From positions 248,001-312,000 of the forward strand of contig NZ_CP151997.1 of NCBI RefSeq assembly GCF_038595005.1: DNA of 64,000 nt, written 5' to 3'. Below the pieces are notes generated by a model. It worked only from the letters and a program-made list of their open reading frames with translations. It was not told where the DNA came from and ran no database searches. The position numbers and the translations under genes are program-made. This DNA is from Chryseomicrobium sp. FSL W7-1435. Its GTDB lineage: Bacteria > Bacillota > Bacilli > Bacillales_A > Planococcaceae. Below, one piece after another: positions 33,876 to 37,369 of this stretch (its first letter is position 1; every line of letters begins with the position of its first letter).

Positions 33876-34415
33876 TCAGACATCCTCATGTATTGTGAGG
33901 GTGTTTTTATATGGCTTCTGGAATTGAAAAAACAATTCCCCGTTCTCCTCATTCACCTGTGTAAACTTCAATTTCCGTAGCAACTGAATCGATGCACTAT
34001 TCTCCACTGCTACCCCGGCCATAATCTGATAGTCGCCTTGCTGCTGGATCCATTCAACCATTGCCTGGACTATTTCAAAAGCGTAACCTTGCCTTTTAAA
34101 GGACGGATGAACGGTATAACCAATCCAGAAAATAGCATCTTCCTTTTTGATGAAGACATCTCCAATTAGCGTTTGATCCACTTTCCTGATAATCGCTAAT
34201 TGCGCTCCGCTTTCCAATGTAGCTTCCTTCAATAGAAACTCTTTATATTCTTCCCGTGAATATCCTTTAAACGATTGATATTTCATCCATTCCACATTGT
34301 TGCGATAGTCAACAAAAGCATCCAAATCGCTTTCGGCAAAACGTCTGACATAACATCTTTCTGATTCGAAGATTGCTTGGCTAGTCGGTTCTATCTTAGT
34401 CACCTCGTTCATCAT
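33876..34415 (-). CDS. GNAT N-acetyltransferase
   Basis: A 179-residue RimJ/RimL-like protein: SERCYVRRFAESDLDAFVDY (N-terminal substrate strand), GYTVHPSFKRQGYAFEIVQA (acetyl-CoA pocket, QGYA instead of GxGxA) and NSASIQLLRKLKF. Substrate not known. Overlaps the ankyrin gene stop by one base (TAATG), so they are an operon. Confidence 0.9.
   Translation of the reverse strand: MMNEVTKIEPTSQAIFESERCYVRRFAESDLDAFVDYRNNVEWMKYQSFKGYSREEYKEFLLKEATLESGAQLAIIRKVDQTLIGDVFIKKEDAIFWIGYTVHPSFKRQGYAFEIVQAMVEWIQQQGDYQIMAGVAVENSASIQLLRKLKFTQVNEENGELFFQFQKPYKNTLTIHEDV
33882..33909 (+). terminator. Terminator of the YdjM-like gene
   Basis: ATCCTCA / TGAGGGT stem with a T5 tail; it overlaps the end of the opposed acetyltransferase gene. 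Confidence 0.7.
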
Positions 34416-35011
34416 TACTCTTCTAAAAGTTGAACCATTTCTGTGTATCCCATCTCCTTGGCATAATCCAGTGCCGTTTTCCCGCGGTTGTCACGAAGCT
34501 CTTTGTTCGCACTATACTTCAGTAATTCTTGAACTATTTCCTGATACAGCGCTGAACCGTCCGTCAAAGCTACTGCTTCAATCAAAGCCGTATAGCCATA
34601 ATTATTTTGATGATCGATATCTGCTTTCCCGTCTTGCAGAAGAACCTTCACATTCTCTAAATGGCCTTTTTCCGCTGCCGGAATCAAAGCATTGCCACCA
34701 TAGCGATTCACAACCGTATGATTCGGCTCAGCATGTGCAATCATATACTTCAAAATCTCTGTTTTCCCTTGTGCCCCCGCATACAAATACGGGCTGTCCT
34801 GAATATGATCTTGCTGATTAATATCAGCGCCAGCATCAATTAGACGTTTTGCGACATCAATAAAGTTTTTGTGTGTAGCAATCAACAGAGGAGATTCTCC
34901 TTTGTCATTTGTTTCATTTATCGGATAGGACGGATTCTGTAAAATAGCTTCTACTTTTCCGACATCATTGTTTTCAACAGCCTGAATAAGAGACCCCTGT
35001 TGCGACTTCAT
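34415..35011 (-). CDS. Ankyrin-repeat protein
   Basis: A 198-residue protein made of about five ankyrin repeats (DKGESPLLIATHKNFIDVAKRL, YGGNALIPAAEKGHLENVKVLL, RGKTALDYAKEMGYTEMVQLL). Acts as a protein-binding scaffold; partner unknown. No signal peptide. The ATG at 35011 is preferred since GGGAGG of the longer frame forms its ribosome binding site. Coupled to an acetyltransferase. Confidence 0.88.
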   Translation of the reverse strand: MKSQQGSLIQAVENNDVGKVEAILQNPSYPINETNDKGESPLLIATHKNFIDVAKRLIDAGADINQQDHIQDSPYLYAGAQGKTEILKYMIAHAEPNHTVVNRYGGNALIPAAEKGHLENVKVLLQDGKADIDHQNNYGYTALIEAVALTDGSALYQEIVQELLKYSANKELRDNRGKTALDYAKEMGYTEMVQLLEE

Positions 35012-35047
35012 ATGCTCTTCCTCCCTCAAAATGATTATTCGTTAGAG

Positions 35048-35527
35048 CTACTTATGATAAGGCTCTCCCTTAATAATCCGAAAACTCCGATACACCTGCT
35101 CCAACAACACCAACTTCATCAACTGATGCGGCAACGTCATCTTCCCAAACGACAATTGCTCATTCGACCGCTTCAATACATCTTCGTGTAGACCCAGGGA
35201 GCCGCCGATGACAAAGACGATTTTGCTAGTACCGTACGTCATGAGGGAATTGAGATGCGCAGCGAGTTCTTCAGAGCTGCGCGTCTTCCCGTTAATGGCA
35301 AGCGAGATGACATGTGCGTCTGGGTGAATTTTAGCTAAGATGCGCTCGCCTTCTTTGCGTTTGACGATTTCCATGTCCGCGTCACTTAAATTTTCTGGAG
35401 CTTTTTCATCTGGCACTTCGATCTGTTCGATTTTTGCATAAGCGCCGAGACGTTTTGCGTATTCTTCGATGCCCATTTTTAAATACTTTTCTTTTAACTT
35501 TCCAACCGTCACAATTGTGATATTCAC
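35048..35527 (-). CDS. rlmH: 23S rRNA (pseudouridine-1915-N3)-methyltransferase RlmH
   Basis: A 159-residue SPOUT methyltransferase, dimeric, methylating pseudouridine 1915 in helix 69 of 23S r[20 protein letters not shown] contains the SAM-knot GGsxG, and [25 protein letters not shown] the C-terminal knot. It starts with GTG behind AAAGGTGG. Near-origin gene in most Firmicutes (YydA in B. subtilis). The region to its upstream side is dense in DnaA boxes. Confidence 0.96.
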
Positions 35528-35614
35528 AGGTTATCCACCTTTACAGTTCATTTACAAACACATTGTCCACATTAGTTATCCACATATCCACATAGATTAT
35601 CTACATATTGTGTC

Positions 35615-35782
35615 TTATTTTTTTCCAGCTACGATATATATAGCTGCCTGTTCACAATGTTCACAGCGTGTGGATAAGTTTTCTGGATTCTCGAGCTTTT
35701 CAAGAATTGGAAATTCTCCTGTCGACGCCGTTACCTCGTCAAGTACTTGATTTACATGGTTTTCGCATGCGTATTTCTCCAT
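35615..35782 (-). CDS. CxxH/CxxC zinc-binding small protein (YyzF-like)
   Basis: A 55-residue protein with CENH near the N-terminus and CEHC near residue 40, forming a zinc knuckle; MEKYACENHVNQVLDE matches the YyzF type that sits beside rlmH in many Bacillales. GAGGAGG sets the ATG at 35782. Function unknown. Confidence 0.85.
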   Translation of the reverse strand: MEKYACENHVNQVLDEVTASTGEFPILEKLENPENLSTRCEHCEQAAIYIVAGKK

Positions 35783-35865
35783 TATTCGACCTCCTCTGAC
35801 AATTAGGATTATGCACAAAGTTATTCACAATTCGTACTAGTTTATCCACACCCTATTGTAACAAA

Positions 35866-35908
35866 TAAAAAAGAAGCAGGAAAGACGCCACTTCGTCCTC
35901 CTGCTCCC
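35866..35908 (-). terminator. Terminator of htrA
   Basis: AGCAGGA / TCCTGCT stem with a long loop, then T6 on the minus strand. Confidence 0.7.
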
Positions 35909-35948
35909 TGTGTAAATCTTTTGTGAAGTGAATTTAGTTATCCACATC

Positions 35949-37178
35949 TTATAATGCGTTGTTGTCTGTCAGTTCCAATGTGAATTCTACAATCTCACCT
36001 TGGCGGTATACTTTCACATCCATTGTATCGCCCACTTCTTTTTCTGTGTAGAGATATTGGCGAAGGTCGAGCATATTTTCAACCTTTTCTCCATCTAGTT
36101 CCACAATGACATCATATTGTTGCATGCCTGCTGCTGCAGCTGGAGAGTTATCAATCACTTCATCTACCACAACACCAGTTGTAATATCTTCTGGAAGTTT
36201 TAATGTTTCTTGCTGGTGGAAGGATGGAACTTGTTCCACATCGACGAGCGTCACTCCCATCGTCGGGCGTTTCACTTCACCGTTTTGTTCAAGGTCTTCA
36301 ATGATTGGAATGGCTGAGTTGATTGGAATCGCAAGTCCAATTCCTTCAACTGTTGTTGTCGAGATTTTCATCGAGTTGATTCCAATCAGTTGTCCCGCGA
36401 TGTTGATCAATGCACCACCGCTGTTCCCTGGGTTGATTGCCGCATCTGTCTGAAGCACTTCTGTCTGCCAGTCTTGTTGTCCATCTTCGTTCAAGTCCAC
36501 TGGGATGACACGTTCTTTCCCGGAAAGAATTCCTGTTGTGACCGACCCGAAGAAATCGAGGCCAAGTGGATTCCCGATTGCGATAACCGGTTCACCTTGC
36601 GTTAACGCATCCGAGTCTCCAAATTCAATCACCGTTTCTACGTCCGTTGCGTCCATTTCAAGTACAGCTAAGTCGGTCCAAACGTCACTACCTACTAATT
36701 CAGCACTGACTTTTTTCCCGCCAGCAAGTGTCACTTCAATCGAGTTGGCTCCGTCCACTACGTGATGATTCGTCACGATAAATGCGCGGTCACCTTCGAC
36801 TTTATAAATAACGCCAGATCCCGTTCCTGCTTCTTGTTCACCGGACTGTTCGCTGCTCCAGAAATTATTCACTTCCTGCAAGTTCGTGATTCCGACGACT
36901 GCTGCCGAGGTCTTTTCAACCGCCGAGGTGATGTCTGTCGTGACTTCCGTGCTCACTTGCTCGGTCTGAGTGATGTTGCCTGCAGTGCGTGTTCCATTGT
37001 TCGGAAGGGCGCTCTGCAAGCTCGGCATCATGAACCAAAGTAGCAATGCACCGACGAGTACTCCGGAAAGTCCCGCTAAAAAGTAGCCGGCAATTCCTCG
37101 TTTTTTCTCTGGTTTTTCTGAACGTTTTGGCGGCTGTGGATCTTCCGCGTACGGATTGTATGGTCTGTAATCATCCAT
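35949..37178 (-). CDS. htrA: Membrane-anchored HtrA-type serine protease
   Basis: A 409-residue protein with a short cytoplasmic head, one helix (about residues 30-52), a trypsin-like domain and a C-terminal PDZ domain. The triad is His (TNHHVVDGA), Asp (DLAVLEMD) and Ser (GNSGGALI). PDZ: ITTGVVVDEVIDNSPAAAAG. HtrA degrades misfolded exported proteins. The ATG at 37178 is chosen (AAAGGAG 9 bp upstream); an ATG three codons earlier has no spacing. Last gene of the wal neighbourhood (YycK/HtrC in B. subtilis), separated from walJ by a 350-bp gap with a tandem repeat. Confidence 0.95.
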   Translation of the reverse strand: MDDYRPYNPYAEDPQPPKRSEKPEKKRGIAGYFLAGLSGVLVGALLLWFMMPSLQSALPNNGTRTAGNITQTEQVSTEVTTDITSAVEKTSAAVVGITNLQEVNNFWSSEQSGEQEAGTGSGVIYKVEGDRAFIVTNHHVVDGANSIEVTLAGGKKVSAELVGSDVWTDLAVLEMDATDVETVIEFGDSDALTQGEPVIAIGNPLGLDFFGSVTTGILSGKERVIPVDLNEDGQQDWQTEVLQTDAAINPGNSGGALINIAGQLIGINSMKISTTTVEGIGLAIPINSAIPIIEDLEQNGEVKRPTMGVTLVDVEQVPSFHQQETLKLPEDITTGVVVDEVIDNSPAAAAGMQQYDVIVELDGEKVENMLDLRQYLYTEKEVGDTMDVKVYRQGEIVEFTLELTDNNAL

Positions 37179-37369
37179 CTTCGTCATCTCCTTTGTTGTA
37201 CTGTATATGTATACTGTACCCTAAGAAGATGAAAATTAGATGAAAATTGCTTAAAAGTTTATTAAAAAGTGGGAGAGTTGATGAATCGCATCTAACGTAC
37301 TCGGCTTTTTCTAGCAAGAACTTGAGTAATTGGGGTTTTGCGGACTACATTAGTTTCCATAATATGACC

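Follow-up and report, generated by a model that had tools for sequence, protein, structure and literature searches.

Whether chromosomal clusters of DnaA boxes are selected for titration of DnaA, or only for regulation of their neighbour genes, is a long-running question. It is raised here by the rlmH-htrA interval of the 64 kb stretch of DNA that was analysed (hereafter the window; positions 248001-312000 of a 2,710,361 bp genome), where positions 35520-35946 hold eleven DnaA boxes, six of them exact copies of TTATNCACA and five with a single mismatch, and part of the group falls within yyzF. The original prediction had placed six exact and five one-mismatch boxes between rlmH and htrA, partly in a small zinc-protein gene; a recount returned the same sites, and the gene is yyzF, encoding a CxxH/CxxC protein. 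The features of the locus are listed below by window position, together with the recurrence of each box in an alignment of 56 distinct loci from the window's family, all with a compact layout (loci with yyzF further from rlmH were left out).

35048..35527, minus strand: rlmH (yydA, orfX), NF000985
35520..35946, both strands: DnaA-box cluster of 11 boxes (6 exact, 5 one-mismatch)
35520..35528, plus strand: near-box ATATTCACA, over the rlmH GTG start; at most one mismatch in 46/56 family loci
35531..35539, plus strand: near-box TTATCCACC; at most one mismatch in 38/56 family loci
35563..35571, plus strand: near-box TTGTCCACA; exact in 31/56 family loci
35576..35584, plus strand: exact box TTATCCACA; exact in 38/56 family loci
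35584..35592, plus strand: near-box ATATCCACA, one base in common with the box at 35576..35584; at most one mismatch in 49/56 family loci
35597..35605, plus strand: near-box TTATCTACA; weakly conserved, 15/56 family loci
35615..35782, minus strand: yyzF, CxxH/CxxC protein, TIGR04129 and PF14116
35669..35677, minus strand: exact box TTATCCACA, wholly within yyzF and in frame as Leu-Ser-Thr; exact in 48/56 family loci
35809..35817, plus strand: exact box TTATGCACA, upstream of yyzF; weakly conserved, at most one mismatch in 13/56 family loci
35821..35829, plus strand: exact box TTATTCACA; exact in 49/56 family loci
35842..35850, plus strand: exact box TTATCCACA; exact in 50/56 family loci
35873..35901, minus strand: terminator-like stem-loops 3' of htrA, two found against 0.7 expected
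35938..35946, plus strand: exact box TTATCCACA, adjoining the htrA stop; exact in 40/56 family loci
35949..37187, minus strand: htrA-type serine protease, TIGR02037 and others, best scores under the curated cut-offs

Across the window, exact TTATNCACA sites number 7 against 2.59 expected, and 6 of the 7 fall in the cluster. Sites with up to one mismatch show no overall enrichment (71 against 68.45 expected); since this window total is ordinary, the excess is local and the signal lies in the clustering itself. When 64 kb sequences were simulated 300 times with an order-1 Markov model, no 427 bp stretch contained more than 2 exact sites or more than 6 with up to one mismatch, as opposed to the 6 and 11 observed. 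Past htrA, the window continues with a gene for an MBL-fold protein, which we take to occupy the walJ/yycJ position, followed by yycI, yycH, and walK, while an ankyrin-repeat protein gene (34415-35029) lies directly beyond rlmH. An Rfam search of 34900-36100 gave no match. A promoter scan of the locus found 3 candidates against a mean of 2.2 in shuffles, and because this is no better than the shuffles, we do not argue for an overlap with promoters.

On the chromosome, the cluster starts at 283520, i.e., 62.7 kb left of dnaA (346223-347533, plus strand). Exact boxes amount to 124 genome-wide versus 91 for the reversed pattern. The oriC box groups among the matches listed are at 345792-346111 (six exact) and 347555-347647 (four), so the rlmH-htrA cluster equals the larger of them in number of exact boxes. 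Other groups were seen elsewhere in this genome. Five exact boxes at 2386101-2386216 (L042:10102-10217), ~670 kb from dnaA, lie between an ABC-F gene and a second gene which, by recognition, we take to be ydiF-like and gcp/tsaD, respectively; this group resembles the B. subtilis gcp/ydiF DnaA region but sits on the opposite arm from the B. subtilis one (628 kb). Four exact boxes spaced by 33–38 bp are found at 214212-214327 (L038:10213-10328), ~132 kb from dnaA and upstream of a pair of ABC-transporter genes. Comparable runs occur in both congeneric genomes (G001 and G036), and no counterpart was matched among 20 genomes, compared without their neighbour genes; with dnaA at 346 kb, this group was ruled out as oriC. 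Finally, three exact boxes on one strand lie within 390 bp at 2639653-2640042.

To place the cluster in a broader taxonomic frame, we relied on RlmH, found in 200/200 genomes drawn for the order (all from the window's family) and 290/299 drawn for the class, and asked of each locus whether the 700 bp upstream of rlmH hold ≥2 exact boxes. Box density is conserved in relatives, so that the original prediction withstands its own check: the rule is passed by 53/53 family loci, 31/52 loci from other families of the class, and 69/80 named loci (the best 80 of 579 confirmed), although near relatives are over-represented in these figures as the 80 named and the first 30 family loci are best-scoring matches to the window. 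Mean numbers of exact boxes are 5.45, 2.02, and 3.71, respectively, against 0.00, 0.08, and 0.05 for the reversed pattern. The 53 family loci comprise the 30 best-scoring ones (own genome included) and 23 picked for genus spread, some of them because they are without yyzF, while the 52 other-class loci represent 30 other families and were picked from among the matches listed. The named and unnamed sets overlap and are not additive (L152 shares a contig with L017, and L219 with L061), and L159, L210, and L215 are truncated where their contigs end.

At least one locus with ≥2 exact boxes was detected in 16 of the 30 other families, and the cluster is displaced in f38 and f41. Named genera with the cluster include Viridibacillus, Ureibacillus, Sporosarcina, Planococcus, Bacillus, Priestia, Exiguobacterium, Listeria, Anoxybacillus, and Aneurinibacillus. 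Beside rlmH, no exact box was found in f2, f12, f13, f22, f23, f28, f36, or Brevibacillus (L226), and a single one in f10 and f19. One locus scored as lacking the cluster by the 0–700 bp rule (L043) nevertheless carries 4 exact boxes within 450 bp, beginning 550 bp upstream. Loci of f9 are AT-rich and their background is raised, with exact/near counts for the box versus the reversed pattern of 3/16 versus 2/7 (L075), 4/15 versus 1/3 (L137), 5/14 versus 0/0 (L138), and 3/12 versus 0/4 (L139).

The four loci of the Staphylococcus-like f9 carry 12–16 exact or one-mismatch sites 5' of rlmH/orfX, which is the SCCmec target gene; no paper among the open-licence PMC matches listed brings together "DnaA box" and orfX or rlmH. 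Two f22 genomes without the rlmH-htrA cluster have small box groups 20–23 kb from dnaA (L232:7468-7501 and L233:6501-6617), possibly another sink of that lineage. Neither these groups nor a box run in G245 (L234) were accepted as the same locus.

The boxes are conserved in place and orientation. Across the 56 aligned family loci, columns within boxes have a mean conservation of 0.87, whereas those outside boxes average 0.63 in intergenic sequence and 0.72 in yyzF. Measured from the rlmH start, the recurring offsets are 36 and 49 (forward), 57 (a near-box with one base in common with 49), 142 (reverse), and 294, 315, and 411 (forward), whereas offsets 70 and 282, two of the window's eleven boxes, are weakly conserved. 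Within yyzF, this conservation reaches the codon level. Leu-Ser-Thr is present in 98/132 distinct yyzF from loci with ≥2 exact boxes, and these 98 encode it as TTA TCC ACA (83), TTA TCA ACA (14), or TTG TCC ACA (1). Counted by column, the box codons are ACA in 104/104, TCC in 86/102, and TTA in 97/100, whereas at other conserved positions whose residue has four or six codons, usage is mixed (top codon: Ala 45/111 and 74/117, Leu 43/102, Val 39/114 and 63/126, Pro 60/131). The bias persists once yyzF is thinned to 71 sequences of <80% identity (ACA 48/48, TCC 33/46, TTA 42/45), although one two-codon column (Tyr, TAT in 125/128) is equally biased, which counts against codon constraint. When yyzF comes from loci without an exact box (n = 20), Leu-Ser-Thr occurs once, in L043 with its more distant boxes, and 13 have a Pro-Ala end at these places. 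The rlmH start is GTG in 127/162 loci with ≥2 exact boxes, 5/9 with one, and 1/36 with none, counts that are uncorrected for kinship and include three misplaced starts in the last row (L093, L147, and L226). A DnaA box held at the codon level inside a protein gene represents a clear case of DNA-binding constraint prevailing over synonymous freedom.

We then considered genomes in which neighbour genes were lost or moved. By profile search of the stretches examined (and of the whole genome in a subset), yyzF is undetectable in 32/207 loci, and 16 of these 32 keep ≥3 exact or ≥5 near boxes beside rlmH, including loci from Sporosarcina (L163 and L200), Savagea (L218), Listeria (L210), and f9. Four family genomes without yyzF (L118–L121) still have 152 bp from the reverse box to the next forward box, the same as in the window, and PF14116 had no match anywhere in three of these genomes (G008, G016, and G027). 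In eight loci of the Terribacillus/Gracilibacillus/Halobacillus/Virgibacillus group, i.e., G339, G358, Terribacillus, Paraliobacillus, Thalassobacillus, Amphibacillus, Halobacillus, and Virgibacillus, both rlmH and yyzF are outside the stretch examined. All but Paraliobacillus, where none was found, have 4–5 exact boxes in an interval reaching from the last 100 bp of htrA to 600 bp past its 3' end, although these seven cases are not all independent, with nearly identical box positions in G339 and Terribacillus. In the complete genome G339, the cluster is 37.6 kb from dnaA, and rlmH lies without boxes 195.7 kb from dnaA (L044). In Gracilibacillus orientalis, the cluster abuts htrA and rlmH is 2.9 kb away. 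Conversely, htrA was not detected beside the cluster in the stretch examined for Savagea L218 and f9 loci L075, L137, and L139, where walJ was detectable. Genomes of f3, f7, and f18 with rlmH elsewhere do not have the cluster at the htrA end (≥2 exact boxes in 0/10 loci), and f2, f22, f23, f28, and f36 have a yyzF-rlmH pair without boxes.

The cluster is thus explained by no single neighbour gene, and the retention of boxes where neighbours were lost or moved suggests that the sites themselves matter. The original prediction had proposed selection on the boxes; conserved positions, codon constraint, and survival after neighbour genes are gone all bear this out, while the titration it invoked would follow by analogy. 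Genomes that kept the boxes after losing or moving yyzF, rlmH, or htrA represent natural experiments that speak for a role independent of neighbours, and they point to particular species and sites in which such a role can be tested.

Several explanations can be considered for this pattern. Chance or base composition would fit the ordinary whole-window count of near-boxes, but we give this practically no credence: the simulations never came close, reversed-pattern controls are near zero, and conservation across families had already refuted it. Alternatively, the boxes may form an operator through which DnaA regulates yyzF-rlmH, and perhaps a gene on the other side, tying expression to replication status and leaving titration as a by-product. 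Boxes do lie upstream of both yyzF and rlmH, and DnaA appears to repress the B. subtilis yyzF-yydD operon (PMC4447404), itself a listed DnaA target (PMC8203912), a point that also counts against a sink. We nonetheless find the operator explanation unlikely, as the cluster persists in half of the loci without detectable yyzF and in seven of the eight with both genes outside the stretch examined, the relocated G339 rlmH is box-free, five families have the gene pair without boxes, one conserved box is inside yyzF and another by the htrA stop, and the promoter scan did no better than shuffles.

Another possibility is a structured control element akin to datA/DARS, in which ordered boxes would build a defined DnaA complex altering DnaA activity (nucleotide state or hand-off to oriC) rather than passively sequestering it. 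The order and orientation of the boxes are kept, as is the exact spacing in L118–L121 even though the gene between these boxes is gone, and such order and spacing are not obviously needed for simple sequestration. However, L118–L121 form one genus-level group whose spacing may reflect a single recent loss, no partner-protein site supports the putative element, and, according to a 2026 review, the existence of B. subtilis regulators balancing ATP- and ADP-DnaA is unknown (PMC13220808). Accordingly, we judge a structured element of this kind quite improbable.

Taken together, we consider it likely that the cluster is a conserved, stand-alone, origin-proximal DnaA sink, orthologous by position to the B. 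subtilis yydA/yyzF cluster. By analogy with B. subtilis, DnaA would be expected to bind the cluster in this organism, with high affinity, and the selected role would be sequestration rather than gene regulation. At ~63 kb from dnaA, the cluster would be copied very soon after each round of replication begins, so that the additional copy would take up free DnaA and thereby help keep oriC from firing too early or more than once. A regulatory effect on yyzF/rlmH may exist alongside this role. The effect of the window's site alone may be small, given that the B. subtilis phenotype is strong only when six clusters are removed together.

Some observations temper the sink interpretation. Some lineages do without the cluster (f3, f7, f18, and Paraliobacillus, as well as f2, f12, f13, f22, f23, f28, and f36), and the raised f9 background and weak f34 cases slightly lower our confidence. 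Distance from dnaA was not used as support. In 39 genomes with a cluster and a known dnaA, 35 clusters are at 25–45 kb and 38 within 85 kb, with G294 at 265 kb, a count that omits the two weak f34 genomes (G284 and G437; 2 exact boxes, with 3 and 6 near) at 405 and 517 kb. However, cluster-less genomes G245, G388, and G239 still have rlmH 39–47 kb from dnaA, so the kept distance is partly synteny and was discounted as evidence. A bolder version, which we regard as conceivable yet doubtful, would make the cluster an ancient stand-alone replication-control element of Bacillales and functional counterpart of datA. It would be defined by a fixed box architecture instead of a mere number of sites and untied to its present neighbours, with selection dictating yyzF codons, even amino acids (Leu-Ser-Thr, as opposed to the x-Pro-Ala of most box-less lineages), and the rlmH GTG start.

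Both the kind of element and the locus are already known from B. subtilis, where yydA/yyzF/yycS is reportedly one of the extra-origin clusters (Okumura and colleagues in 2012). Added here are the spread of the yydA/yyzF-type cluster beyond Bacillus, its neighbour-independence, and its codon constraint. The open-licence PMC literature had no report of conservation of the locus outside Bacillus, neighbour-independence, or codon constraint; Okumura 2012 and Ishikawa 2007, which may already report conservation among Bacillus, were outside this search, as were most subscription papers. Like the B. subtilis cluster, the one in the window packs several consensus boxes into a few hundred bp that are not part of oriC, lies upstream of rlmH (=yydA), spans yyzF, and is to the left of and near dnaA. 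Unlike it, the far neighbour is directly htrA instead of yycS, and the two clusters do not share the same set of boxes or distance (62.7 kb here). Among B. subtilis relatives, the locus has 3 exact and 10 near boxes in B. mojavensis (L183) and 3 exact and 9 near in B. halotolerans (L196). The original prediction had pointed to a B. subtilis DnaA-box cluster beside yydA (rlmH) and to a control of initiation timing by remote clusters, and both points were right. In B. subtilis, a strongly DnaA-bound region "upstream of yydA, spanning yyzF" (region 8) is among the eight strongest affinities (PMC4447404), and removing six extra-origin clusters together leads to early initiation, strong only with all six gone (PMC5295017), an early initiation also reported in the 2026 review (PMC13220808).

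In E. coli, datA, DARS1, and DARS2 are likewise DnaA-box loci that lie away from oriC and adjust the availability or state of DnaA (PMC5295017, PMC13220808), yet they differ by an IHF/Fis-dependent change of DnaA nucleotide state, which the window cluster is not known to bring about, and by another genomic context. Boxes in E. coli also accumulate near the origin and titrate DnaA, a pattern reported as conserved in E. coli strains and Salmonella (PMC12371093); the E. coli pattern is, however, an accumulation towards the origin, while the cluster described here is one compact ~430 bp element with a fixed layout.
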